Notes under the pieces: generated by a model | Seen by the model: only the letters and a program-made list of their open reading frames with translations | Told to the model about the DNA's origin: nothing | The model's database searches: none | IMG/VR virus record: IMGVR_UViG_3300032050_000963 | Location: 1 to 21,122 of that record | Source: a virus | Direction: 5' to 3' (one strand) | Length of the DNA: 21,122 bases | Made by a program: the position numbers and the translations under genes | Part shown: piece after piece, positions 2,666 through 15,488 of the stretch | How the letters are laid out: each line of letters begins with the position of its first letter | How positions within the stretch are numbered: position 1 is the stretch's first letter

Positions 2666-3055
2666 ATGGGCAATCGTTTTGCCAGTGCCAAGAATTCGAT
2701 TGCGCAGTGTGACCGCTGCGGCTTTCGCTTCAAGCTCAAGGAGCTACGCAAGCTGGTTGTAAAGACCAAGATCAACAACGTCTTGGTGTGCAACTCCTGT
2801 TTTGACCCGGATCACCCACAACTGCAGCTCGGTATGTACCCAGTGGACGACCCACAAGCGGTGCGTAACCCCCGCAGGGACACAACATACGTGACGGCCG
2901 GAACCAACGTGGCAGGTTTTCCAACAGGCGGCAGCCGGGACATTCAGTGGGGCTGGGCCCCCGTTGGGGGTTCCCGATTCTTCGATGACGCGTTGACACC
3001 AAACACTTTGGTATTGACTGCCGCAATCGGTCAAGTGACAATCTCAACATCCTAA
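2666..3055 (+). CDS. Zinc-ribbon virion-associated protein
   Basis: 129 residues; start codon abuts the preceding TAA. Residues 15-45 form a Cys4 ribbon: C15-x2-C18 and C42-x2-C45 separated by a basic helix-like stretch. It is followed by FDPDHPQLQLGMYPVDDPQA, a block I recall as strongly conserved in related environmental phages. The C-terminal half (IQWGWAPVGGSRFFDD, then beta-prone TLVLTAAIGQVTISTS) resembles a small beta-sandwich. No catalytic residues are visible. Its position between two adaptor-type genes argues for a structural job at the head-tail junction, with zinc stabilising the fold or contacting DNA. That role is inference; the ribbon itself is clear. Confidence 0.75.
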   Translation: MGNRFASAKNSIAQCDRCGFRFKLKELRKLVVKTKINNVLVCNSCFDPDHPQLQLGMYPVDDPQAVRNPRRDTTYVTAGTNVAGFPTGGSRDIQWGWAPVGGSRFFDDALTPNTLVLTAAIGQVTISTS

Positions 3056-3456: not shown

Positions 3457-4119
3457 ATGACCTACACCGAGTTGCAAGCAGCGATCTGCGATTACACGCA
3501 GAACTTTGATCAGGACTTTGTTTCAAACATCCCGGTGTTTGTACAGCAGGCCGAGCAGCGCATTTTCAACACGGTGCAGTTTCCTTCGTTGCGTCGCAAC
3601 GTGACAGGGGCTACTTCCTCCAACAACAAGTATCTGGCTTGCCCAGCCGACTTCTTGGCGTCTTATTCCATCGCTGCGGTGGCTCCTGACGGCTCCTACG
3701 AGTATTTGCTCAACAAGGACGTCAACTTCATCCGGCAGGCGTACCCCACCCCTTCTTCCACCGGGTTCCCCAAGTACTACGCGCTGTTTGGCCCGTCTTT
3801 TGCCAACAGTGATGAGCTGTCGTTCATTTTGGGTCCAACGCCTGATGCGCGGTATGTCGTGGAGCTGCACTACTTCTTCTACCCCGAGTCGATCTCCGTG
3901 ACGGCTGATGGGCGGACGTGGCTGGGTGACAACTTTGATACGGTGCTGCTGTATGGCTCTTTGGTTGAAGCGATCACGTTCATGAAGGGTGAGCAAGACA
4001 TGGTGGCTTTGTACGACGGCAAGTACAAAGAGGCGCTCGCACTTGCAAAACGTCTGGGTGACGGACTCGAAAGACAAGACGCTTACCGCTCTGGGCAGTA
4101 CCGACAGGCGGTGACTTGA
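3457..4119 (+). CDS. SU10-like phage adaptor protein
   Basis: 220 residues. The N-terminus MTYTELQAAICDYTQNFDQ followed by IPVFVQQAEQRIFNTVQFPS is characteristic of the adaptor family typified by phage SU10, whose ring connects the portal to the tail nozzle. The central beta domain runs from about residue 50 to 150 (YLACPADFLASYSIAAV, then FPKYYALFGPSF). C-terminal helices (LLYGSLVEAITFMKGEQDM, then YKEALALAKRLGDGLERQ) close the fold. The length fits. The ribosome site GAGG at 3447-3450 overlaps the previous stop. With the gp4-like gene this gives two adaptor-type proteins for one neck, which is normal for podoviruses with a multi-ring connector. Confidence 0.75.
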   Translation: MTYTELQAAICDYTQNFDQDFVSNIPVFVQQAEQRIFNTVQFPSLRRNVTGATSSNNKYLACPADFLASYSIAAVAPDGSYEYLLNKDVNFIRQAYPTPSSTGFPKYYALFGPSFANSDELSFILGPTPDARYVVELHYFFYPESISVTADGRTWLGDNFDTVLLYGSLVEAITFMKGEQDMVALYDGKYKEALALAKRLGDGLERQDAYRSGQYRQAVT

Positions 4120-4120
4120 T

Positions 4121-4528
4121 ATGGCGTTTGACCAAACTCTCACCACGCAGGCCAAGTTCATTGCACTGCAGGCTCTGGCTACAGGCACGCTCAAGATGGC
4201 CTTGTATACCGCCAATGCGGACCTTGGCGCTGGCACGCTGGTGTACACCACAACCGATGAGGTTGTTGGTACAGGCTACACTGCTGGCGGCAATACGCTG
4301 ACCAACGTGACGGTTCAGCAGTCTGGCACAACGGCTTTTTTGGACTTCGACAACGTGGTCTGGAACCCGGCCAGCTTCACTGCACGCGGTGCGCTTATCT
4401 ACAATACAAGTCTTGGCAATTTGGCCGTGGCGGTGTTGGACTTCGGGGCCGATAAAACGACCACCACAACTTTCACTGTGCAGACACCGGCCAACACGGC
4501 TGACGCTGCGCTCATACGTTTCGCATAA
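4121..4528 (+). CDS. Probable structural beta protein of the tail/fibre region
   Basis: 135 residues beginning MAFDQTLTTQAKFIALQALA, with the block YTTTDEVVGTGYTAGG (45-60) and the ARGALIYNTSLGNLAVAVLD region. From memory this family ('MALNQTLTxQAK ... EVxGTGYTAGG ... ARGALIYNxS..NKAVAVLDFG') is common in tailed phages next to tail-fibre genes, but its role has not been assigned that I know of. It is almost all beta-prone and Thr/Gly-rich, without signal peptide or catalytic motif. The gene follows the adaptor by one base. A minor virion or decoration protein is the best guess. Confidence 0.7.
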   Translation: MAFDQTLTTQAKFIALQALATGTLKMALYTANADLGAGTLVYTTTDEVVGTGYTAGGNTLTNVTVQQSGTTAFLDFDNVVWNPASFTARGALIYNTSLGNLAVAVLDFGADKTTTTTFTVQTPANTADAALIRFA

Positions 4529-4537
4529 GGAGCGATC

Positions 4538-5119
4538 ATGTCTATCGAAAAAGCAAGTTCTACAGATACCGTGGCAGCAGGCGTCAGCGCCACACGCTCT
4601 TTTGGCGAGGGTCTCAAGGGTGGCGGTGTGTTCAAGATCGCGTGCCACAGCGAAGACGGTAGCCTGAAGTGGGAAGCTGAGTCGCACAACCTCGTGGTGA
4701 ACGTGGGCCTGCAGGACATGAACACCAAGTACTTTAGCGGTAGCAGCTACACCGCTACGTGGTTCCTCGGTCTGTACGGTTCGGGCAGCACCAACAACCC
4801 CGCCGATGGCGACACGATGGCTTCACATGCAGGATGGACAGAAGTTACGGCATACAGCCAGTCCACACGTCCGGCTTGCTCTTTTGGTACGGCCACCACG
4901 GCTGACCCTTCGGTGATTTCAAACTCGGCTTCGCCTGCTACGTACAGCATCAACGGCACTACGGTGGTTGGTGGGGCGTTCCTGACAAGCAACAACACCA
5001 AAGGTGGCACGACAGGTATCTTGTTTTCCGCTGCTGATTTCCAAGCTCCGGGCGACCGCAGTGTGGTGTCCGGTGACACCATTACAGTATCGTATACTTT
5101 TTCCCTTGACGCTGCTTGA
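4538..5119 (+). CDS. Probable phage structural protein (beta-rich)
   Basis: 193 residues with a strong AAGGAG site (4527-4532) overlapping the preceding TAA. Two parts are visible: a polar N-terminus, then a beta-rich domain starting around FKIACHSEDGSLKWEAESHN, with WFLGLYGSGS and a long C-terminal region ending GDTITVSYTFSLDAA. The 'Lxw...HNLVVNVGLQDM' stretch is typical of virion proteins found beside fibres in many tailed phages (recall, not a search). No enzymatic motif. It most likely sits on the tail or capsid surface; the exact role is unknown. Confidence 0.68.
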   Translation: MSIEKASSTDTVAAGVSATRSFGEGLKGGGVFKIACHSEDGSLKWEAESHNLVVNVGLQDMNTKYFSGSSYTATWFLGLYGSGSTNNPADGDTMASHAGWTEVTAYSQSTRPACSFGTATTADPSVISNSASPATYSINGTTVVGGAFLTSNNTKGGTTGILFSAADFQAPGDRSVVSGDTITVSYTFSLDAA

Positions 5120-5127
5120 GGTGAATC

Positions 5128-5307
5128 ATGGCCACTAAATTCGCACGAAATCAAGTTGTCAAAGTCCGCACGGTTGTCCCCGAGGGCCCCGTACTTGCGC
5201 TGCGCATGGACGAAGATGGCGTGGTCCATTACCTGTTGCAGTGGGTTGACCAAGATGGCAACCAGCAAGAGCGTTGGTTTGCTGAAGATGTACTGACAGG
5301 GGTTTGA
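5128..5307 (+). CDS. 59-residue small beta-barrel-like protein
   Basis: A short gene with ribosome site GAGGTGA (5118-5124) and a clean stop three bases before the fibre gene. The product alternates charged and hydrophobic residues: NQVVKVRTVVPEGPVLALRM, then VVHYLLQWVD and QERWFAEDVLTGV. The pattern resembles small SH3/KOW-like barrels such as the DUF2158/YodC type (a 'V..G..V.....RWF....L' layout). That resemblance is by eye and uncertain. No known function; position directly before a tail fibre suggests a virion accessory or fibre-assembly role. Confidence 0.65.
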   Translation: MATKFARNQVVKVRTVVPEGPVLALRMDEDGVVHYLLQWVDQDGNQQERWFAEDVLTGV

Positions 5308-5310
5308 TAT

Positions 5311-7896
5311 ATGCCACTCGTTATCGCTGATCGTGTCCGGGAGACGACTACTACTTCCGGCACGGGCACACTTACACTGGCTGGGCCCTACTCCGGCTTC
5401 CAAGCCTTCTCAGTCATCGGTAACGGTAACACCACGTACTACGCCATCATCGATGCGCAAAACGGTGCGTGGGAAGTAGGTATTGGCGCGTACACCACGT
5501 CGGGTAACACGCTGTCGCGTGCAACCGTGCTGGCCTCCAGCAACGCAGGGTCGTTGGTCAACTTTGGTACCGGCACCAAGGACGTTATCCTGACCCAGCC
5601 TGCTCGCAGGTCTGTGCTTGTGCAAGAAGGTGGCTCGGGCCTCATCACTGGGGTTGCAGCGTTCACAGCCAACGGGGTTCCTTACGCCGACTCCACCAGC
5701 ACGCTGGCCACCAGCGCCAACATGACCTTCAACGGCACCCGCCTGACGGTTGCTGACCTTGCTGACTCGGGATTGACTTCGGGTCGTGTGACTTACGCCA
5801 GCACTGGCGGTGCGCTGGTGGACTCGGCAAACCTGACGTTTGATGGGACAAACCTGACTCTGGGCGGCGGCACAGCCAACGGCGTGGCCTACCTCAACGG
5901 CTCCAAAGTCCTGACCACTGGGTCTGCGCTGACGTTTGATGGGACGAAACTGACAAATACCGGGTCTGCTGGCGGTGTGAGACTTGAGATTGTTTCAACA
6001 AGTTCTAGCCCTGAAATCTCCCTCACATCCGCAGACACTGGAACGAGTCAAATCAACTTTGGTGGTGCAACGACACCGAAAAAAGGTGTGTTCCGATACT
6101 CAGACAACTCTGACCTGTTCGTCTGGTTGCTTAACAGCAACACCGAACAAATGCGCCTGACCAGCACAGGTCTGGGTATTGGGACGAGTTCGCCTGCGGT
6201 GAGGTTGCATGCGTTTACTTCTGGTGTTTCTACGCAAGCGTTCTTTGAGTCCGGCACTGGCGCGTCCGTTATCAGGTTTAAAGACTCAACTACAACCGAC
6301 ACCTTTGCCCCGCAGTTTGGCTCTGCTGGAAATTCCATGTTTTGGCAGATTGCAGGCTCCGAACAAATGCGCCTGACCAGCACAGGTCTGGGTATTGGGA
6401 CGAGTTCGCCATCGTACAAGCTGGACGTGAACGGCGTTATCGCCACTGGTAGCGGCAGCAATAGAGGCTTCTTCTACAACGATGGCAGCAAAATTCTTCT
6501 GGAGTCCAGTTCAACTTATCCGTTGGCTTTTTCTGTCAACGGGAGCGTCAGAGCCACCCTCGACTCCTCCGGCAACCTCGGCTTGGGGGTTACTCCGAGT
6601 GCTTGGGCATCTACGCACAAAGCCTTGCAAATGAACTGGTCGGCATTTTCGACTGATGCGGGCAACGGCGAAACCAGTGTTTCGACCAACGCATTTGCTT
6701 CTGCCGGAACTACTTGGAACTACAGATCAACTGCACCCGCCGCCCGATACACGCAAGATTATTTCGGAAAGCACATCTGGTACACCGCCCCCTCCGGCAC
6801 AGCAGGTAACGCTATTAGCTTTACTCAGGCGATGACGCTGGATGCGAGTGGGAATTTGTCTGTGGGGACCACAACGGTTAGCTCGCCCGGGATTACAGTC
6901 GCACAGGGTACAAATCTTTGCTTCAGCGAAGGTTCAGGTTCCTTTGTCAATATCTTTAGACAATCAAATTCTGCCGACAGTGTTTTTGGTAGCGGAGTGC
7001 GTTTTTCGTCTACAGCAAATGCTTTTGCAAGTTCTACAGCAAGTCCGTGGGCACGCAGCGCAATTACCGTTGGGTATGGTGCCATCAGGTTCTTGACCGC
7101 AGCAGAAGCAACCGTCTCTGTGGGGTCTGACGTAACACTGAACGAACGCGCCCGTATCGACTCCAGCGGTAACTTGCTGGTTGGCACAACCTCACCGTCA
7201 TTCAACGCCGGAAGCCGTGGAAACATTACTATTGGTGGTTCTGGTAGTGCAATCTTTGCGTTGCAAACCGGAGGCACAGCAAAAGGCTATGTTTTCCACG
7301 ATGGCACAGAGATGACCATTGCAAACGAAGCCAATGGTTTTTTGAGGTTTTACACAAACGCCACCGAACGCGCCCGTATCGACTCCAGCGGTAGCTTGCT
7401 GGTGGGAATGACAAGCGCATTTGGAAAAATCAGCATTGGCCAAAACTCACAATTTAGTTACGCTCAAGGTTTGTCTCTTTACTTTAGCGGAAGCTCGTAT
7501 TGGAACATTGTTAATGGCGGCTCCAATCGCCTGTATTTTGGTTTTAACGGCGCTGATCGCGGGTACATAGATTCTTCAAGCGGTAATTATGTTTCTGTTT
7601 CAGACCAGCGATTAAAAAAGAACATTGCAGATATTGGCTACGGCTTGTCTTCTGTTTTGTCCTTGCGGCCTGTTTCCTACAACATGAACAGCCAAGAGGA
7701 CACAGAAGAAAAAACACTTGGTTTTATTGCTCAAGAAGTATTGGAGGTCGTGCCTGAATCTGTTTCTGAAATGATGAACGGAATGTACGGTATGGATAAA
7801 ACCGCCATTATTCCTGTTCTTGTCAAAGCCATCCAAGAGCAGCAAGCCCTCATCCAAACCCTGACCGCCCGTGTCGCGGCACTCGAATCAAACTGA
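5311..7896 (+). CDS. Tail fibre with C-terminal S74 intramolecular chaperone
   Basis: 861 residues. Residues 1-107 form a conserved attachment module (MPLVIADRVRETTTTSGTGT, IGNGNTTYYAIIDA, TLSRATVLASSNAG). Residues about 110-220 contain three TF[DN]GTxLT-type repeats. The shaft (about 230-750) holds repeated MRLTSTGLGIGTSSP and ARIDSSGNLLVGTTSP units typical of beta-helical fibres. The C-terminus is a peptidase S74 chaperone: S764-D765-Q766-R767-L768-K769, spaced like the S911/K916 dyad of the K1F endosialidase, then GFIAQEVLEVVPESV and a terminal coiled coil (IQEQQALIQTLTARVAALES). In this family the chaperone drives trimer folding and then cuts itself off before the Ser, here releasing about 98 residues. 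No sugar-cleaving motif recognised. The C-terminal third is AT-richer than the N-terminus. Confidence 0.92.
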   Translation: MPLVIADRVRETTTTSGTGTLTLAGPYSGFQAFSVIGNGNTTYYAIIDAQNGAWEVGIGAYTTSGNTLSRATVLASSNAGSLVNFGTGTKDVILTQPARRSVLVQEGGSGLITGVAAFTANGVPYADSTSTLATSANMTFNGTRLTVADLADSGLTSGRVTYASTGGALVDSANLTFDGTNLTLGGGTANGVAYLNGSKVLTTGSALTFDGTKLTNTGSAGGVRLEIVSTSSSPEISLTSADTGTSQINFGGATTPKKGVFRYSDNSDLFVWLLNSNTEQMRLTSTGLGIGTSSPAVRLHAFTSGVSTQAFFESGTGASVIRFKDSTTTDTFAPQFGSAGNSMFWQIAGSEQMRLTSTGLGIGTSSPSYKLDVNGVIATGSGSNRGFFYNDGSKILLESSSTYPLAFSVNGSVRATLDSSGNLGLGVTPSAWASTHKALQMNWSAFSTDAGNGETSVSTNAFASAGTTWNYRSTAPAARYTQDYFGKHIWYTAPSGTAGNAISFTQAMTLDASGNLSVGTTTVSSPGITVAQGTNLCFSEGSGSFVNIFRQSNSADSVFGSGVRFSSTANAFASSTASPWARSAITVGYGAIRFLTAAEATVSVGSDVTLNERARIDSSGNLLVGTTSPSFNAGSRGNITIGGSGSAIFALQTGGTAKGYVFHDGTEMTIANEANGFLRFYTNATERARIDSSGSLLVGMTSAFGKISIGQNSQFSYAQGLSLYFSGSSYWNIVNGGSNRLYFGFNGADRGYIDSSSGNYVSVSDQRLKKNIADIGYGLSSVLSLRPVSYNMNSQEDTEEKTLGFIAQEVLEVVPESVSEMMNGMYGMDKTAIIPVLVKAIQEQQALIQTLTARVAALESN
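6143..6194 (+). repeat. 52-bp perfect direct repeat, copy 1 (fibre shaft)
   Basis: Identical to 6359-6410; the copies are 216 bp (72 codons) apart and in frame. It encodes the EQMRLTSTGLGIGTSS shaft unit. Perfect nucleotide identity, beyond what protein conservation needs, implies a recent duplication or ongoing gene conversion. Confidence 0.9.
6359..6410 (+). repeat. 52-bp perfect direct repeat, copy 2 (fibre shaft)
   Basis: Second copy of 6143-6194. Recombination between the copies would delete or duplicate 72 residues in frame without breaking the gene. Confidence 0.9.
7143..7181 (+). repeat. 39-bp direct repeat, copy 1 (fibre shaft)
   Basis: Matches 7365-7403 with one mismatch; separated by 222 bp (74 codons), in frame. 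It encodes an ERARIDSSGNLLV shaft unit. Confidence 0.85.
7365..7403 (+). repeat. 39-bp direct repeat, copy 2 (fibre shaft)
   Basis: Second copy of 7143-7181, encoding ERARIDSSGSLLV; the single base change gives the Asn-to-Ser difference. Confidence 0.85.
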
Positions 7897-7907
7897 AAGG
7901 AAAAACC

Positions 7908-8261
7908 ATGACCGATACCCTCAACTCCGTCACCATGACTTGGGACGTGACAGCTATGGACTGCTATCCACAAGAGGACGGCCACACCGACGTGGTGTTC
8001 ACCGTGCACTGGACCTGCTCCGGCAGCCAGACAGCCCGCGGCCAGACATACAACGGCAGCGTTTACAGCACTTGCGGCGTACCAGCGCCAACCGGCTCAG
8101 CGTTCACGCCATACGACCAACTCACCGAGCAGCAAGTCCTCGGCTGGATTTGGGCCAATGGCGTTGACAAGGCAGCCACAGAAGCCGCTGTGCAGCAGCA
8201 GATCAACAACCAGATCAACCCACCCGTGGTGACACCTCCACTGCCTTGGGCTGCGGCATAA
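7908..8261 (+). CDS. Fibre-associated accessory protein
   Basis: 117 residues, ribosome site AAAGGA just after the fibre stop. N-terminal half is a beta domain (VTMTWDVTAMDCY, DGHTDVVFTVHWTCSG) with four Cys (C24, C37, C56 and a neighbour set not matching a zinc motif). The C-terminal half has a helix (LTEQQVLGWIWAN, then KAATEAAVQQQINNQ) and ends in Pro-rich PPVVTPPLPWAAA. The layout (beta domain, '[LF]xxLTxExVxxWV' helix, C-terminal PPLPW) is one I recall for small phage proteins encoded beside tail fibres, where no function is established. A fibre chaperone or cap is possible. Confidence 0.7.
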   Translation: MTDTLNSVTMTWDVTAMDCYPQEDGHTDVVFTVHWTCSGSQTARGQTYNGSVYSTCGVPAPTGSAFTPYDQLTEQQVLGWIWANGVDKAATEAAVQQQINNQINPPVVTPPLPWAAA

Positions 8262-8292
8262 TTTACGCTCCATCAACCTTCTGGAGACTTGC

Positions 8293-8463
8293 ATGCAAGA
8301 CCAAGACATTACTCTCAAGCTGTCCCTGCTCAACGGCGTGTTGAACTACCTCGGCACCCGCCCCTACGGCGAAGTCGCTCCAATCATCCAAGCGATCCAA
8401 GAGCAAGCTGCCCCGCAGGTAAAAGTGCCCGAGCAGGCTGAACAGCCTCAAGTCGTGCAGTAA
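8293..8463 (+). CDS. 56-residue small acidic/Gln-rich protein
   Basis: Starts MQDQDITLKLSLLNGVLNYL with ribosome site GGAG (8283-8286). A hydrophobic helix-forming first half is followed by IIQAIQEQAAPQ and a Gln/Val/Pro tail ending QPQVVQ. Its layout ('LxxxLxNxILxxLGxxPYxEVxxLIxxIQxQ') is, from memory, common in small proteins near phage fibre genes and likely forms an oligomeric helical hairpin. The stop overlaps the next start (TAATG at 8461-8465), coupling it to the repeat protein. Function unknown. Confidence 0.68.
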   Translation: MQDQDITLKLSLLNGVLNYLGTRPYGEVAPIIQAIQEQAAPQVKVPEQAEQPQVVQ

Positions 8464-9392
8464 TGTTCGGAACTGCCGCATACGCACAACTGCCGTATGC
8501 CTCTGCACCGGGGGCAGAGTTTTCAGCGACCATAGCTGAAACCGTAACAGCTCTCGACACGTTTGCGGCAGTCACAAATTTTGCTTGCCTGACCAGTGAG
8601 CTGGCGCAGGCATCGGATGCAAGCACATCCACAACAGTTTTCACAGCTTTTGCAGCCGAGACTGCAACTGGGGCAGACACAACCGCTTCCACGTTTGTCA
8701 TAAACGCTGCGCTCAGCGACGCCGCGACCATAGCCGATACTACCTCTGCAGCGGCCACGTTCCCCACAGCACTGACTGAGGTTGCAGCGGCGGTCGGGAC
8801 ATTCACGGGCCTGCCCACATACGCTACCCAGATCGCAGAAGCAGCCAGCGGCGCAGACACCACGGCGTCCATTTTTGTGGCGTCAGCCTTCATTGCAGAG
8901 ACCGCCACTGCCGCAGACACCACGACCTGTATTTTTGTCTTCCCGGCCGAAGTAAACGAGAGCGCAACAGCTGCCGATACCGCTGTAGCTAACCTGACTG
9001 TCCCTGCCAGCGTGGAGGAGTTTGCCACAGCATCCGACACCTTCACCGCCACTGCCACATTCCCTGCGACTGTTTCTGAGCAGACAACGGCTATCCTCAA
9101 CTCCGTGGTGGCCACCGCCGCATTGCTGGCGTCCGTGGCGGAGAATGTGCAGGCTGCAGACGTTTTGGTGGGCTCGTTCCTGTGGAACGACATTGACGAC
9201 ACCCAGATTCCGGGCTGGACAGACATCCTTCGCCCGACGACAATCGAGGACATCGCGGTGTTTGGGGATGCAAATTTTGGTGTAATCCCGTTTGCTGGCG
9301 ATGTGGTTACCCGCTACGACCCCGCAGGGACGACTTGGTCACAAATTGACGATACGCAAACCCCAGACTGGACCGTCATTGACGCCGTTTAA
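8463..9392 (+). CDS. Protein of ten tandem 20-residue Ala/Thr repeats, probable virion surface protein
   Basis: 309 residues. After a short start (MFGTAAYAQLPYASAPGAEF) residues 26-226 are ten units of 20 residues (the last has 21), each of the form E-x-A-T-x-A-D-T-x(6)-F-x(5). Clear examples are ETATGADTTASTFVINAALS (66-85) and EAASGADTTASIFVASAFIA (126-145). The C-terminus holds two copies of W-x2-IDDTQ-x-P-x-W (from 241 and from 292). Strict phasing and alternating small/hydrophobic residues suggest a beta-solenoid or similar elongated rod. Comparable Ser/Ala/Asp 20-mers ('SESGSAADS...') occur in environmental phage genomes from memory, sometimes labelled antifreeze-like, which I would not accept. 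Location between two fibre genes supports an exposed virion role. No enzyme motif. Confidence 0.78.
   Translation: MFGTAAYAQLPYASAPGAEFSATIAETVTALDTFAAVTNFACLTSELAQASDASTSTTVFTAFAAETATGADTTASTFVINAALSDAATIADTTSAAATFPTALTEVAAAVGTFTGLPTYATQIAEAASGADTTASIFVASAFIAETATAADTTTCIFVFPAEVNESATAADTAVANLTVPASVEEFATASDTFTATATFPATVSEQTTAILNSVVATAALLASVAENVQAADVLVGSFLWNDIDDTQIPGWTDILRPTTIEDIAVFGDANFGVIPFAGDVVTRYDPAGTTWSQIDDTQTPDWTVIDAV
8538..9140 (+). repeat. Tandem 60-bp coding repeats (10 diverged units)
   Basis: Encodes the 20-residue repeats. Units are diverged at DNA level (conserved elements GCnGAnAC / GACAC) but kept in exact 60-bp register, apart from one 63-bp unit near the end. This indicates old duplication under selection for the protein period. 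Confidence 0.85.
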
Positions 9393-9401
9393 GGAAAAAT
9401 C

Positions 9402-10748
9402 ATGAGCACCTATTCACCCAGTCTTCGGATTGAACTCATCACAACCGGCACACAGGCCGGTACGTGGGGCAATACCACCAACACCAACCTTGGTGGTTTG
9501 ATTGAGTCTGCGATTGCAGGCTACGTCTCTGTCTCCATCACTTCAGCCAACCAAGCGTTGACTGCGCTTAATGGCGCAGCGGATCAGTCTCGCAACATGT
9601 CGATTGCACTGACCACAACCACCACCGCAGCGTTCAACGTCTACGCGCCTCCGGCCGAGAAGACCTACGTCATCTACAACGCCAGCGCATACGCTGCCAC
9701 GATCTTCAACTCCTCGGTTCTGGGTAACACCACGGCAGCGGGTACTGGGGTGGCTATCCCCGCAGGTAAAACCGTAACGATCTGGTCTGACGGAACCAAC
9801 TTCAGCTTCCAAAACGATCACCTGCCGAGCCTCACGCTTGGCACAGACTTGGCTATTGCTGACGGCGGCACGGGGGCCTCGACTGCGGCGAACGCTCGCA
9901 CAAATCTTGGTGTAACTGCCACGGGGCAGGACACCACCTACGCTTTCCGTTCCAACAACCTGTCTGATCTGGCCAGCGCTTCTTCTGCAAGGACCAACCT
10001 TGGTCTGGGCACCATTGCTACGCAGAACGCCAACGCCGTCAGCATCACTGGGGGCTCAATCTCCGGCATCACTGATTTGGCTGTTGCGGATGGGGGTACG
10101 GGCGCTTCGGATGCTGCAACTGCACGCAGCAACTTGGGGGTTCCATCAGCAACGGGTTCCGGTGCATCTGGTACGTGGAACATCAACGTCACTGGTAACG
10201 CCGCCACAGCCACAAACGCCACAAACGCCACAAACTCCACAAATGCCACGAACGCCACAAACGCTACCAACGCCACAAACGCAACCACAGCCACGACGGC
10301 ATCAAGTGTAACCAATGGTGTTTATACAGTTGGCGATCAGAATATTGGTGGAACCAAGACGTTTATCAACGGCGTACGCTTTGCCGATGGAAGCACGCAA
10401 ACCACAGCTGCCCTGATAAATCCACTTTCACTCGCATCAATCGGTTCAACCGTTTGGGGACTTAGGACTTCAACTGGCTCTGTTATTTACCCGGGGGACA
10501 CGATAAGTGGTTCTTTCGTGTTTTATCAGGGACTCGGCAATTCGATATATGGCCCGAATGTAGGTAGTCTGCAAATAAGTGGCGATCTTACAAACCGAAC
10601 AACTGCTTTTTCGGAATCTGTCAATTTTACCTTTTCCCCATTTGGGGTTGGAACTTGGCTGGTAATTTCACCTGTAAGACAGGCCGTCTATGATGGTTTG
10701 TACAATACTACTTATTTTTATTTTGCTTTATTTAGAAGGATTTCTTAA
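9402..10748 (+). CDS. Second tail fibre with (ATN)n neck and AT-rich tip
   Basis: 448 residues; AAGGA site overlaps the previous TAA. N-terminus SPSLRIELITTGTQAGTWGN (5-24), then TNTNLGGLIESAIAG, is a common phage fibre attachment module. Two copies of a LA[IV]ADGGTGAS...AR[TS]NLGV unit follow, a widespread fibre repeat. Residues 270-293 are eight Ala-Thr-Asn triplets (one Ser-Thr-Asn), probably a trimeric neck. Next is VGDQNIGGTKTFINGVRFAD, another recurrent fibre block. The last 115 residues or so form a distinct domain (SGSFVFYQGLGNSIYGPN ... FALFRRIS) that I do not recognise. GC drops from about 57% to about 40% here (about 30% at 10681-10740), as for a recently acquired receptor-binding tip. 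No S74 chaperone domain is seen, unlike the first fibre. Confidence 0.85.
   Translation: MSTYSPSLRIELITTGTQAGTWGNTTNTNLGGLIESAIAGYVSVSITSANQALTALNGAADQSRNMSIALTTTTTAAFNVYAPPAEKTYVIYNASAYAATIFNSSVLGNTTAAGTGVAIPAGKTVTIWSDGTNFSFQNDHLPSLTLGTDLAIADGGTGASTAANARTNLGVTATGQDTTYAFRSNNLSDLASASSARTNLGLGTIATQNANAVSITGGSISGITDLAVADGGTGASDAATARSNLGVPSATGSGASGTWNINVTGNAATATNATNATNSTNATNATNATNATNATTATTASSVTNGVYTVGDQNIGGTKTFINGVRFADGSTQTTAALINPLSLASIGSTVWGLRTSTGSVIYPGDTISGSFVFYQGLGNSIYGPNVGSLQISGDLTNRTTAFSESVNFTFSPFGVGTWLVISPVRQAVYDGLYNTTYFYFALFRRIS
10209..10280 (+). repeat. 9-bp tandem repeat, eight units (GCCACAAAC)
   Basis: Eight near-identical nonamers encoding Ala-Thr-Asn (one Ser-Thr-Asn). Changes in copy number would lengthen or shorten the fibre neck by three residues per step without shifting the frame. 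Confidence 0.9.
10734..10740 (+). promoter_or_regulatory. Ribosome site (AGAAGGA) deciding the start at 10750
   Basis: AGAAGGA lies nine bases before ATG 10750 and within the end of the fibre gene. It favours that start over the in-frame ATG at 10690, which would add 20 residues encoded entirely inside the fibre gene. Confidence 0.55.
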
Positions 10749-10749
10749 A

Positions 10750-11034
10750 ATGATTAACACAGTAATAACGTCCGCAAAAAACTTGATTTGGACTTCCCCT
10801 GACTCCGACAGGTTTGATGCGGAAGTTTTGTTTCAAGGCCATCAAAATTACATCCCAGCCGCTTGCAACATTGTTGAGGTAGGCGTGCTTGAGCACATCA
10901 CCGATCTTTGGAATCGCGCCATGAACGGCGAGTTCGGACAAATTGCAGAATTCGTTCCGCCGCCCGAAATCCCCGAGAGAGCGCAAGCAACCGCAACCGG
11001 AGCGTCTGGCGAAATTCCCGGGAGCGTCTTATGA
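10750..11034 (+). CDS. 94-residue protein after the fibre, function unknown
   Basis: Product MINTVITSAKNLIWTSPDSD..., with an alpha/beta-like core (FDAEVLFQGHQNYIPAACN, then LEHITDLWNRAMNGEFGQIA) and a disordered Pro/Ala tail. No family recognised. The upstream ribosome site and ATGA overlap with the cupin gene (11031-11034) place it in the same translation unit. Small genes directly after a fibre often encode fibre assembly helpers or tip proteins that vary with the receptor; that role is inference. Its N-terminal coding is AT-rich like the fibre tip just upstream, so the two may have moved together. Confidence 0.7.
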   Translation: MINTVITSAKNLIWTSPDSDRFDAEVLFQGHQNYIPAACNIVEVGVLEHITDLWNRAMNGEFGQIAEFVPPPEIPERAQATATGASGEIPGSVL

Positions 11035-11387
11035 GTCAACCAATCGTAAAAATCGGCTGTGTCGCCAATCTCTACTCGCGCATGATGCGTTTTGAGAAAG
11101 CTGGCGACATTGAAGTTGGCCACACTCACCAATTCGACCATCTCACGCTGCTTGCCAAGGGTAAGTTAAAAGTCACGGTCGAAGGTGTAGCAACCGAGTT
11201 CACTGCGCCGCACATGATCTACATCCACAAGGACAAGATTCATGAACTTGAGGCGCTGACCGATGAGACGGTGGCTTACTGCATCCATGCACTGCGGGAT
11301 AAAGAAACCAATGAGATTCTCGACCCATCAATGATTCCAGCGGGTGTTTCCGCAATGTCGTGTGCAGCACCAGTGGTGACTGTGTAA
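11031..11387 (+). CDS. Cupin-fold protein
   Basis: 118 residues from the ATG overlapping the upstream stop; the longer in-frame start at 10908 lies inside the previous gene. The HTHQFDHLTLLAKGKLKVTV stretch (about 32-51) matches cupin motif 1 (HxH, then an acid or His, and Gly on a turn), and APHMIYIHKDKIHEL is like motif 2 with two His. Metal binding through H32, H34 and a later His is plausible; the usual motif-1 Glu position is D/H here. Cupins include sugar isomerases, dioxygenases and non-enzymatic binding proteins, so the reaction cannot be named. A homologous cupin pattern occurs near fibres of environmental phages from memory. It may modify host surface sugars or act structurally. Confidence 0.72.
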   Translation: MSQPIVKIGCVANLYSRMMRFEKAGDIEVGHTHQFDHLTLLAKGKLKVTVEGVATEFTAPHMIYIHKDKIHELEALTDETVAYCIHALRDKETNEILDPSMIPAGVSAMSCAAPVVTV

Positions 11388-11416
11388 ATATGTTTGCCGA
11401 GGGAAAGAATTGACCC

Positions 11417-11863
11417 ATGCTGGCCGAAATTGCTGCTGCCAACGCAGCCTTTGCTGTAATAAAAGGTGCTCTGGCCAACGGTAAGGAGCTGCACCAACTC
11501 GGCACTCGGGTCTTTGATTACTTCGACAACAAGGCAAAGATTCAAGAGTCTGCCACCAAGAAAGGTGGAGGCTCGGACCTTGCTGAGTTCATGGCGCTTG
11601 AGCAACTCAAGCAGCAAGAAGAAGAACTGCGCGAGCGCATGGTCTACGCGGGCCGTCCGGGCATGTGGAACGATTGGCAGAAGTTTCAAGCCGCCGCCGC
11701 TCGCAAGCGCAGAGAGGCCCAAGAGGCCGCAGAAAAAGCCGCCAAGCTGCGCAAAGCGAGGATGGAGCAATTGGTTGAGTACATTGCCGTTGGTATTGCC
11801 ACGGTGATCCTTGCTGCTCTGATCATTTACGGAATCGTTTTGTACATGCTGCATCTGAGATGA
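11417..11863 (+). CDS. C-terminally anchored coiled-coil membrane protein of the lysis module
   Basis: 148 residues. An Ala-rich start (MLAEIAAANAAFAVIKGALA) is followed by ELHQLGTRVFDYFDNKAKI. A long charged coiled coil comes next (EFMALEQLKQQEEELRERM, then ARKRREAQEAAEKAAKLRKA). One transmembrane helix lies at about 120-144 (YIAVGIATVILAALIIYGIV). The GTRVFDYFDNK...YAGRPGMW pattern is, from memory, recurrent just before the holin in related phages, without a function. It is not a standard spanin (TM at the wrong end, no lipobox partner seen). It probably sits in the inner membrane with the coil in the cytoplasm. ATGA overlap with the next gene. Confidence 0.72.
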   Translation: MLAEIAAANAAFAVIKGALANGKELHQLGTRVFDYFDNKAKIQESATKKGGGSDLAEFMALEQLKQQEEELRERMVYAGRPGMWNDWQKFQAAAARKRREAQEAAEKAAKLRKARMEQLVEYIAVGIATVILAALIIYGIVLYMLHLR

Positions 11864-12477
11864 GCGACGAGAAGCTGAACGCCAACTCAACACTCGACAA
11901 GGTGCTCGGGTATGTGGACTCGCCGTTTAAGCTGTTTGCCATTCTCGTGATGGGCATTGTGGCTTTCTCTGGGTACTTCTTGTGGCAGAACCAAGAGTTC
12001 ATGCGCGACGCTTACAAGGAGTCCAAGAAGCTACCTGAGATCAATACCAGCCGCGCCGACGATGTGGGTGCGATGTTGATGAAAAAGACAGGAGCCACGG
12101 TGGTGGCGGTCTTCAAAGTCAACCCGCTGTTCAACAGCCGGGTGTTGTATCGCGCATACACCAAGGACGGCAGAGACAAGACGATTGAAGACATTGATGT
12201 CGGGCTGTTCAGCCAAAACGCGGCCAACAATTCGGATGTGGTGCGGCTGATGACCAATGAGATTCCTTGCGGGGAATACCGTTACGCGCAGTCCGAGGTG
12301 GGCCTGTGGTACTTGGAAAAGGGCGTGGCGTACACCTGCCGGGTGAGTGTTCCACCAGACAGTTACAGGTTTGTCGGTCAGGTTACTGTAGGCTGGACTG
12401 AGCAGCCCAAAGACATTGAGCAAGTAAAATTCATGCTGGAGATTGCCAGCGCCATGTTGACAAAAAGGGGTAACTGA
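11860..12477 (+). CDS. N-terminally anchored membrane protein with extracytoplasmic domain
   Basis: 205 residues: short cytoplasmic start, one TM helix at about 23-42 (FKLFAILVMGIVAFSGYFLW), then roughly 160 residues that would face the periplasm. The soluble part alternates helix and strand (RADDVGAMLMKKTGATVVAV, VGLFSQNAANNSDVVRLMTN, DSYRFVGQVTVGWTEQPKD), with two Cys (in IPCGEYRY and AYTCRVSV) that could form a disulfide. The layout loosely recalls a GAF/profilin-like sensor fold, by eye only. Start inside ATGA, end overlapping the holin start (TGATG). A role in lysis timing or superinfection exclusion is possible; family unknown. Confidence 0.72.
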   Translation: MSDEKLNANSTLDKVLGYVDSPFKLFAILVMGIVAFSGYFLWQNQEFMRDAYKESKKLPEINTSRADDVGAMLMKKTGATVVAVFKVNPLFNSRVLYRAYTKDGRDKTIEDIDVGLFSQNAANNSDVVRLMTNEIPCGEYRYAQSEVGLWYLEKGVAYTCRVSVPPDSYRFVGQVTVGWTEQPKDIEQVKFMLEIASAMLTKRGN

Positions 12478-12980
12478 TGCTTTCACTCATTTCAACTCTC
12501 GGGGGTCTGCTGATCTCTGGTCTTCCCAAGCTGCTGGAGTACTTCCAAAACAAAGCCGACCAAAAACATGAGCTGGCGCTGGCCCGAGTCCAGACCGAGC
12601 GCGAACTCCAACTGGCTGCTGCTGGCTTTGCAGCCCAAGCCAAGATCGAAGAAATCCGCACCGAGCAGGTGGCGATGGAGACCGACGCCCGGATGACTGA
12701 GGCGGCTCTTGCCCACGATGCCAAGGTGCTTGAGAAGGCCGCGTCGTGGGTGTCCAGCTACGTGGGCACTGTGCGCCCCACGGTGACGTATATCTTCGTG
12801 CTGGAGCTGGTGGCAATCAACGCCTTCATGGCTTGGTATCTGTACCAGCAGCCGGGACTGATCACCAGCATTGACGACGTGATCCGTTACTCCGACCTGA
12901 TCTTCTCCAGCGACGAGATGGCCATGCTGGGCGGTATATTAGGTTTTTGGTTTGGATCAAGGACTTGGAGCAAGAAGTGA
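12477..12980 (+). CDS. Three-TM holin (gene-transfer-agent holin family)
   Basis: 167 residues. A short hydrophobic N-terminus (residues 3-19) precedes a long charged amphipathic coil (30-90). Then comes WVSSYVGTVRPTVTYIFVLE with a TM at about 102-121, and FSSDEMAMLGGILGFWFGSR with a TM at about 146-160. This is the pattern of the 3TM holin family (GTA_holin_3TM type), which forms lesions in the inner membrane and lets the lysozyme reach the cell wall. VRPxxTY and the terminal GxxxFWFGxR block are its signatures. The following lysozyme starts within GTGA of this stop, so expression is coupled. It lacks an obvious dual-start antiholin. Confidence 0.85.
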   Translation: MLSLISTLGGLLISGLPKLLEYFQNKADQKHELALARVQTERELQLAAAGFAAQAKIEEIRTEQVAMETDARMTEAALAHDAKVLEKAASWVSSYVGTVRPTVTYIFVLELVAINAFMAWYLYQQPGLITSIDDVIRYSDLIFSSDEMAMLGGILGFWFGSRTWSKK

Positions 12981-13514: not shown

Positions 13515-15488
13515 ATGCCCTTACAGAAACTCCAACTGCGCCCCGGTGTAAACCGAGAATCGACGACACTGTCCAATGAAGGCACTTGGTTCGAGATGGA
13601 CAAGGTGCGCTTTCGCTCAGGCTACCCTGAGAAGCTGGGCGGTTGGGTTCGGGATACGGGTGGGTATTTCAACAACGGCGTTTCACTTCCCCCGGAAACT
13701 GGATCGTTCTGGGGTGTTGCCCGGTCGCTGTGGAACTGGGTGACGCTGGCAGGCTTTAACCTGATGGGTGTGGGCACCAACCTGAAATACTACATCCAGC
13801 AGACGGATGGCGGTAACTTCTACGACGTGACGCCCTTGCGGGATACCAACTCGATTGCCAGCGGCGCATTCACTACAACCAACGGCTCAACCACGGTCGT
13901 GGTCAACGACCCGGGTCACGGGGGCCAAACGGGCGACTTTGTCACCATTTCCGGTGTTGGCGGAGCCATCAACGGCATCCCTGCGTCTGCGCTGAACAAA
14001 GAGTTCCGCATGACCTACCTGAGTGCCAACACGTTCAGTATCGTGGTCAGCTCACCAGCTACCAGCGCGGGCACTACGGGCGCTTGCACAGTCGCGTATC
14101 AATTTGGTATTGGTAACGATGTTTACACGGTCGGTGTGGGCTGGGGTGCTGGCGGCTGGGGCGGCTCGACTACGGGCTTTCCTTCGACTGGGTGGGGTGA
14201 GCCTGCACCTGCTGGTGTGGGTGTTGGCGTGCAGCTTCGTCTGTGGAGCCAAGACAACTACGGCGACTATCTGGTCATGAACCCCCGTGGCGGTGCGCTC
14301 TATTTGTGGGTTCCCGGCGCTTCGCCTTCCACCTACTACCGGGCGCAGATTCTTTCCAGCACCAACACAAACACCCAAGATGGCGTGGCCTACTGGGAGA
14401 CGGACACCAGCTGCCCCACCGTGTGCAACATTGTTGCCACCTCTGACACATCCCGGTTTGTGATTGCCTTTGGCTGTAACGACTACGGCTCGGCCACTCT
14501 TGACCCGTTGCTGGTGCGCTGGTCTGACCAAGAAGATTACAAGGTCTGGGCCCCTGCGGCCACCAATCAGGCGGGCAGTTTCCGCTTGAGTATCGGCTCG
14601 TCCATCGTGGCCGAGTTGCAGTCTCGTCAGGAAATTTTGATCTGGACCGACGCTGCTCTGTATTCGATGCAGTACCTCGGACCCCCGTTTGTTTGGGGGT
14701 TCAATATCCTTGCGGACAATATCTCCATCATGGGGCCAAACGCCGTGGCCACGGCCGCCAACATCACCTACTGGATGGGGCGCGACAAGTTCTATATGTA
14801 CTCCGGCCGTGTTGAGACGCTGTATTGCCCTCTGCGCCAGTACATCTTTGGCGACATCAATCTGGAGCAGGCATACCAATTCTTTGCATCCACCAACGAA
14901 GCGTACAACGAAGTTTGGTTCTTCTACTGCTCAGCCAACTCCACCGTAATTGATCGGTACGTCATTTACAACCACCTCGAAAAGATTTGGTCGTATGGCA
15001 ACTTGTCACGTACGGCTTGGCTGGATACGGCTTTGCGGGACTTCCCAACGGCTGCGGGCTACAACGGCCAGTTGATTTACCACGAAGACGGTGTGGATGA
15101 CGGCACTACAAACCCACCCAGCCCGATCACTTCGTACATCCAGTCTGCCGACATGAACATCGGTGATGGGCATAACTACGGTTTTGTGTGGCGGATGATC
15201 CCGGACATCACGTTTGATGGCTCGACTGTAAACAACCCCTCGGTTACGTTCACGATGCGTCCCCGGCAAAACCCCGGTGCAAACTACGGAGCAGCGCCAA
15301 CTCCATCTGTCACCAGCACCCAAAACTACCAAGCGCAGCGCAATTACCTCGTGCAGCAGTTTACGCAGATCGTTTACACACGCATTCGAGGACGCCAGAT
15401 GGCATTCAAGATTGAGTCAACTGGGCTTGGCGTGCAGTGGCAGCTTGGCGTTCCGTCAATTGACCTCAGGCCTGATGGCAGAAGGTAG
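13515..15488 (+). CDS. P22 gp10-like tail/DNA-stabilisation protein
   Basis: 657 residues; GAGG at 13505-13508. The opening MPLQKLQLRPGVNRESTTLS with NEGTWFEMDKVRFRSGYPEK is a signature, from memory, of a large tail protein widespread in podovirus-like phages. I assign it to the P22 gp10 type, whose hexamer forms the tail hub below gp4. Middle segments with repeated Gly/Trp (VGWGAGGWGGSTTG) and several W-D-x2-L-like strands (LLVRWSDQEDYKVWAP, AALYSMQYLGPPFVWGFNIL, YWMGRDKFYMYSGRVETL) suggest a beta-propeller. Residues about 119-190 resemble an inserted Ig/beta domain (TVVVNDPGHGGQTGDFVTIS). The C-terminal third carries RPRQNPGANYGAA. It is separated from the other adaptor genes by fibres and lysis genes. 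Confidence 0.75.
   Translation: MPLQKLQLRPGVNRESTTLSNEGTWFEMDKVRFRSGYPEKLGGWVRDTGGYFNNGVSLPPETGSFWGVARSLWNWVTLAGFNLMGVGTNLKYYIQQTDGGNFYDVTPLRDTNSIASGAFTTTNGSTTVVVNDPGHGGQTGDFVTISGVGGAINGIPASALNKEFRMTYLSANTFSIVVSSPATSAGTTGACTVAYQFGIGNDVYTVGVGWGAGGWGGSTTGFPSTGWGEPAPAGVGVGVQLRLWSQDNYGDYLVMNPRGGALYLWVPGASPSTYYRAQILSSTNTNTQDGVAYWETDTSCPTVCNIVATSDTSRFVIAFGCNDYGSATLDPLLVRWSDQEDYKVWAPAATNQAGSFRLSIGSSIVAELQSRQEILIWTDAALYSMQYLGPPFVWGFNILADNISIMGPNAVATAANITYWMGRDKFYMYSGRVETLYCPLRQYIFGDINLEQAYQFFASTNEAYNEVWFFYCSANSTVIDRYVIYNHLEKIWSYGNLSRTAWLDTALRDFPTAAGYNGQLIYHEDGVDDGTTNPPSPITSYIQSADMNIGDGHNYGFVWRMIPDITFDGSTVNNPSVTFTMRPRQNPGANYGAAPTPSVTSTQNYQAQRNYLVQQFTQIVYTRIRGRQMAFKIESTGLGVQWQLGVPSIDLRPDGRR

Follow-up and report, generated by a model that had tools for sequence, protein, structure and literature searches.

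A gene of a freshwater phage (8463-9392) encodes a protein in which a 20-residue repeat lies between two different end modules. The gene is under purifying selection and occupies a conserved slot, and its relatives carry different numbers of repeat units. We propose, with a probability of roughly 0.5, that it encodes a modular virion protein in which the end modules and n 20-residue beta units form a rigid spacer or shaft for the adjacent tail fibres. The window, by which we mean the whole stretch of 21,122 bases that was analysed, comprises the whole virus record, which probably covers only part of a genome. Since the stabilisation/nozzle-like protein at 13515-15488 has relatives in DSL-LC04, HTVC027P, CRP-901/902 and Bruynoghevirus-type Pseudomonas phages, we regard the phage as most likely podovirus-like and related to the HTVC027P/DSL-LC04 group. 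The features discussed below are listed in Table 1.

Table 1. Positions in the window of the repeat gene, its parts and its neighbours, with the observations that define them.
Feature	Position	Strand	Basis
Small phrog_644-type gene and small phrog_8123-type gene	4121..5119	+	Mark the conserved slot on its 5' side
Upstream S74-type tail fibre	5311..7896	+	Peptidase_S74, E = 1.9e-14; PHROG tail fibre
56-aa ORF just upstream of the repeat gene	8293..8463	+	Sequence; no family match
Repeat protein ORF (whole feature)	8463..9392	+	309 aa + stop, ATG start; homologous ORFs, dN/dS 0.28
N-terminal module, aa 1-19, MFGTAAYAQLPYASAPGAE	8463..8519	+	F2/Y7/Y12 five residues apart, each followed by G/A
Repeat units 1-10, 20 aa each	8520..9119	+	PSSM hits at aa 20, 40, ... 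200; autocorrelation
Single extra residue (unit 10 is 21 aa)	9120..9122	+	Spacing of 21 to unit 11
Repeat unit 11, aa 221-240, running into the C-terminal module (ENVQAADVLVGSFLW)	9123..9182	+	PSSM spacing
C-terminal Trp module, aa 241-309, WNDIDDTQIPGW ... WSQIDDTQTPDW	9183..9389	+	W241, W252, W292, W303
Downstream tail-fibre-like gene (MSTYSPSLRIELITTGTQAGTWGNTTNTNLG...)	9402..10748	+	PHROG tail-fibre matches; conserved 3' neighbour

The repeats cover residues 20-240 of the 309-residue protein as eleven units that start at residues 20, 40, ... 200 and 221, with a spacing of 20 residues nine times and of 21 residues once (unit 10 to unit 11). Autocorrelation of the protein gave z = 8.6 at lag 20 and z = 5.4 at lags 40 and 60, and no other lag up to 60 exceeded z = 2.8 (2000 shuffles). 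Nine [E/D]-x5-[D/E] units form an in-register chain, compared with a maximum of five in 20,000 shuffles. Both tests agree with an earlier note on this DNA, which described strictly phased 20-residue repeats with just one unit off by one residue; its count of ten units has to be corrected to eleven according to the PSSM. The period of its register E-x-A-T-x-A-D-T stands, but the motif is better written as F-x-x-x-V-S-E-T-A-x-A-x-D-x-x-x-A-x-x-x, in which F1, E7 and D13 are present in 63%, 93% and 82% of 214 distinct units of the family. Within the window protein, position 7 is acidic in 11/11 units and position 13 is D in 9/11. Positions 1, 5, 9, 11 and 17 are apolar, 7 and 13 acidic and most even positions polar, an alternation that resembles beta strands. 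The protein has a low sequence complexity, with 47% A+S+T, 36 acids, two arginines and no lysine. An antisense ORF (8384-9253) also has a 20-residue period, which is a mere mirror of the plus strand; the plus strand was chosen because purifying selection and the relatives are found there.

Unit DNA is on average only 44.5% identical between the units of the window and Tandem Repeats Finder reported no array over them, therefore the period is a feature of the protein level. The dN/dS ratio was 0.28 against relative L001 and 0.36 against relative L002 (for the C-terminal half of L002 only), and the N-terminal 19 residues had no non-synonymous changes against either, so the repeat gene is under purifying selection. 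Together with the register kept in relatives, this upholds the view that selection has maintained the period of the protein through the divergence of its DNA.

We call proteins E-type when their units have 20 (+0/+1) residues with an acid at position 7, D at 13, an aromatic or aliphatic residue at 1 and V/I/L at 5, and when an N-terminal aromatic-Gly motif and C-terminal 11-residue Trp repeats enclose them; the window protein has all of these. Scans of IMG/VR with several members yielded about 47 distinct E-type relatives with 5-48 units each, so that the orthologues of different repeat number for which the earlier note had proposed a search do exist. Loss of the period in relatives would have counted against that note, but the period is conserved: in a held-out set of 37 proteins outside the unit-profile set, some of them close kin of it, the spacing was an exact multiple of 20 in 314 of 394 cases and within one residue of it in 385. 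Large members of the family have internal WG modules that resemble the N-terminal motif; they were seen in L006, L011, L017, L021 and L027. The distance from unit to unit across these modules is 58-60 residues, the module itself adding about one 20-residue step. Since the register survives this unrelated sequence, a geometric constraint is indicated. Between close relatives the length differs by entire units: there are 48 in L017 and 35 in L021, yet their DNA is 88% identical around and within the gene, and the window has 11 units against 13 in L002.

The window protein and several relatives were searched by tblastn against cultured phages and returned nothing or DSL-LC04 only, with the restriction that the low-complexity filter may hide relatives (gp68 of HTVC027P surfaced only through synteny). 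Scans of bacterial and archaeal genome contigs gave no relative and hence no assignment to a host or a prophage. Neither Pfam nor NCBIfam had a match above cut-off for the window protein or its relatives. PHROGs had no family for the window protein and matched two relatives only at E > 0.05, the PDB gave no match by sequence, and our literature search found no paper describing the repeat. The repeat protein is a member of a widespread, unnamed and uncharacterised phage family of a known general kind.

The end modules recur in the family. The N-terminal motif reads F-G-x3-Y-A-x3-Y-A in the window and has its counterpart in WGxGxWGxxxWG of the relatives. The C-terminal module consists of 11-residue repeats of the type W-x-x-I-D-D-x-Q-x-P-x-W, of which L017 has many copies; in the window protein the tryptophans are 11 residues apart inside each pair (W241/W252 and W292/W303), and an insert separates the pairs. 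A match of the window protein to relative L014 (E = 6e-5) was carried by query residues 214-304.

For the window protein (8 sequences), AF2 predicted beta strands that follow the phase of the repeat units, at a low confidence with a mean pLDDT of 41 and values below 50 over most of its length. A second model was made for a very regular segment of L017 (residues 270-570) with 27 rows that included the window protein; for these, relatives were split at the WG modules, since repeat windows in multiple registers collapsed in MAFFT. This model reached a mean pLDDT of 49 and a block confidence of up to 69. At about residues 59-152 it has 7-residue strands and 3-residue turns, that is, two strands per 20 residues. 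The monomer predictions for which the earlier note had called are therefore beta-rich, whereas their confidence leaves room for disorder. A Foldseek search of the L017 model against the PDB gave non-significant matches only (E >= 3), among them SufB, a putative pectinase, a putative adhesin, an antifreeze protein, LpxD and an Ag43-type protein, which we take to be mostly parallel beta-solenoids or beta-helices. VIA-align gave Z scores of 11.2 for SufB (5awg), 9.2 for the putative pectinase (3lyc), 9.0 for the putative adhesin (4opw) and 7.8 for a Ca-dependent beta-helical antifreeze protein (3p4g) at 6-12% identity, and repeat proteins reach such Z scores by common arrangement. The coil of about 20 residues that is predicted here likens the protein to these solenoids; their coil motifs differ and there is no sequence match. 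A BFVD structure search had no match at E <= 0.001. The sequence agrees with a solenoid in that the period is a plausible coil length and the register is conserved. We therefore favour a parallel beta-solenoid with one coil and two strands per 20 residues as the putative fold. With a solenoid rise of about 0.48 nm per coil, eleven units would give a rod of ~5 nm and 48 units one of ~23 nm. Two known folds were discarded on sequence grounds. The pentapeptide-repeat (Rfr) fold, A(D/N)LXX, has neither lag-5, -10 or -15 autocorrelation nor a Pfam match in its favour, and the Ca-dependent beta-helix of the 3p4g type has a 19-residue repeat with a Ca-binding GTGND turn, whereas the unit here has 20 residues and no such turn.

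The favoured fold generates two problems. Firstly, if the residues alternate strictly, E7 and D13, both conserved, would point to the side of the apolar residues, so that a plain solenoid leaves the acids unexplained; ladders of stacked acids would require cations, turns that interrupt the alternation, or an oligomer interface. Secondly, solenoids often score well in AF2 even with few sequences, and the low confidence of both models (41 and 49) could thus mean that the fold is an obligate oligomer or otherwise different. An interlocked trimeric beta fibre with the function of a triple beta-spiral or another fibre shaft, in which three chains each contribute to a strand-turn-strand module per 20-residue unit, would account for the poor monomer predictions and could place the conserved acids and the one aromatic residue per unit at chain interfaces, and phage fibres are usually trimers. 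We nevertheless consider it unlikely, since the better of the two monomer models looks like a stack of solenoid coils already, and the features of adenovirus-type triple beta-spirals, a 15-residue period with a Gly/Pro turn, are absent (the period is 20, no G is conserved and P stays at or below 13% at any position). A largely disordered acidic spacer whose register is a by-product of unit duplication would also fit the low pLDDT (under 50 for most of the window protein) and the composition, which is rich in Ala, Ser and Thr, free of lysine and of low complexity. This reading is improbable, because the register is kept at about 44% unit DNA identity, across WG modules and in divergent relatives, and the apolar positions are conserved. 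Moreover, drifting linkers are expected to gain indels of any length, but here almost only +1 or whole-unit changes were found.

The gene slot points to the virion. From the 5' side, the window encodes the phrog_644-type (4121) and phrog_8123-type (4538) genes, the S74 fibre (5311), a DUF7936 gene (7908), the 56-aa ORF, the repeat gene and a GTWG tail-fibre gene (9402). The stop codon of the 56-aa ORF and the start codon of the repeat gene overlap (TAATG), which suggests translational coupling of the two. A GTWG-type ORF is the next one downstream in 37 of the 43 E-type loci with downstream sequence, against a background of 73 in 3805 ORFs over E-type loci that includes the same genes; some relatives lack the S74 fibre at the position directly upstream. 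An elongated virion rod is consistent with this slot among virion and tail genes. The alternative, a fibre or decoration that is associated with the head and lies outside the tail apparatus, seems quite doubtful: the slot follows small virion genes close to the head-tail connector genes, and roseophage CRP-902 carries the alternative repeats in fusion with a homologue of the window gene at 2666-3055, but the gene directly downstream is tail-fibre-like in the 37 of 43 relatives just mentioned.

Several other genes of the window were noted. The protein of 2666-3055 is small, has paired CxxC motifs (zinc-ribbon-like) and ends in a single 'WGWAPVGGS...LVLTAAIGQVTIS' stretch like the WG and VTG elements. 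Among the virion genes are a recombination endonuclease VII (HNH) gene (611-1129; Pfam E = 2.9e-22) and a LAGLIDADG-like ORF (1356-1970; sub-threshold), which are likely mobile endonuclease insertions. Three small genes with hydrophobic segments at 11417-12980, one with a sub-threshold 3TM-holin match, are followed by a phage lysozyme and form a probable lysis cassette.

DNA of the window matches that of L001 at 3464-5941 (96%), 7830-9840 (94%) and 10227-11636 (91%). At 5942-7829, which covers the greater part of the S74 fibre, there was no match except for a patch of 73%, and at 9841-10226, which is part of the downstream fibre, there was none. The repeat gene, 94% identical to that of L001, is hence kept while segments of the fibre genes on either side are exchanged, a pattern that speaks for a shared structural part and against a host-specific binder. 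The downstream fibre gene also contains a NAT tripeptide run at 10197-10282 (a 9-bp DNA repeat), and the non-matching stretch runs just before and into it. No recognisable tail-fibre or receptor-binding domain was found in the repeat protein by PHROG or Pfam, though its neighbours match such families. That the repeated face binds ice, minerals, glycans or the cell envelope is very improbable: regular arrays can bind periodic surfaces and 3p4g is a weak structural neighbour (VIA Z 7.8), but such a weak match is common to unrelated solenoids and the repeat gene is conserved where the flanking fibres were exchanged. The ice-binding function raised in the earlier note lacks a conserved T-x-T face, since T occupies positions 8 and 10 together in about 3/11 window units and relatives often have R, N or Q at position 10. 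Its glycan-binding alternative, like host binding, finds no support in view of the same conservation next to exchanging fibres.

In the shaft or spacer reading, the aromatic-Gly N-terminal module and the C-terminal 11-residue Trp repeats would be end pieces that dock or cap, and the n copies of the beta unit would stack into a rigid rod. This rod would act as a spacer or shaft that sets the distance or orientation of the adjacent tail fibres, and its length would be set by the number of units and tuned by gain or loss of whole units. The new type of elongated virion rod suggested in the earlier note gains from the slot among virion and tail genes and from the variation in unit number; presence in the virion itself, as well as a role in attachment, the partner, the rod shape and the oligomeric state, we infer. 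Members of the family occur in numerous environmental viral contigs and also in relatives of the Pelagibacter phages, where its genes are called hypothetical. If it forms a length-adjustable rod between host-recognition fibres, this would explain a common unannotated gene of environmental phages. The aromatic-Gly start, the 20-residue E-x5-D units and the W..IDDxQTPxW end would then provide an annotation signature, and the family a natural system of interchangeable repeat coils.

A second kind of repeat is found between the same ends. DSL-LC04 (OR003939) is a lake phage genome assembled from a metagenome; its TerL falls into a group with those of Pelagibacter phages (PMC10611076). Its hypothetical protein WJZ48131.1 shares the N-terminal aromatic-Gly motif, the C-terminal W..IDDxQTPxW 11-residue repeats and the slot ahead of a GTWG fibre gene with the E-type family, but has a Gly-rich repeat of ~22 residues, VTGVxGTGxVGxVTV, without the E/D pair. 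A scan with this protein gave 80 loci, and a later census counted about 33 distinct VTG-type proteins in IMG/VR. The census of both kinds found no protein that combines E-type and VTG-type repeats. Ends and slot are what the two kinds have in common. In CRP-902, gp53 (L040:7964-8890) has VTGVAGTG repeats and a GWGNNAWGNGTWGNG WG motif fused to the homologue of 2666-3055; repeats may thus move onto another virion gene. More tentatively, fixed end modules may clamp interchangeable stacks of beta repeats (20-residue E/D, 22-residue VTG and WG) of conserved coil length, which would be an undescribed class of rod. Length and chemistry of the rod could then change by whole coils, and E/D ladders could be bridged by cations and make the rod ion-dependent.

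Among cultured phages, gp68 (QGZ17849.1) of Pelagibacter phage HTVC027P, annotated as hypothetical, lies in the same slot after a phrog_644-like gene and before a GTWG 'putative tail protein'. Its N-terminal WNTGSWGQNQW motif, internal WG modules and C-terminal W...PGWREV liken it to the E-type family, although its repeats are different and looser. The serine-rich protein family NF033849 (ser_rich_anae_1) of NCBIfam matches L013 (E = 3e-8) and L017 weakly in low-complexity stretches, at 31.5 bits against a cut-off of 650, and does not match the window protein. The repeat protein belongs to no named family; if the rod reading is right, it would work in a similar way to other phage shaft and spacer elements.
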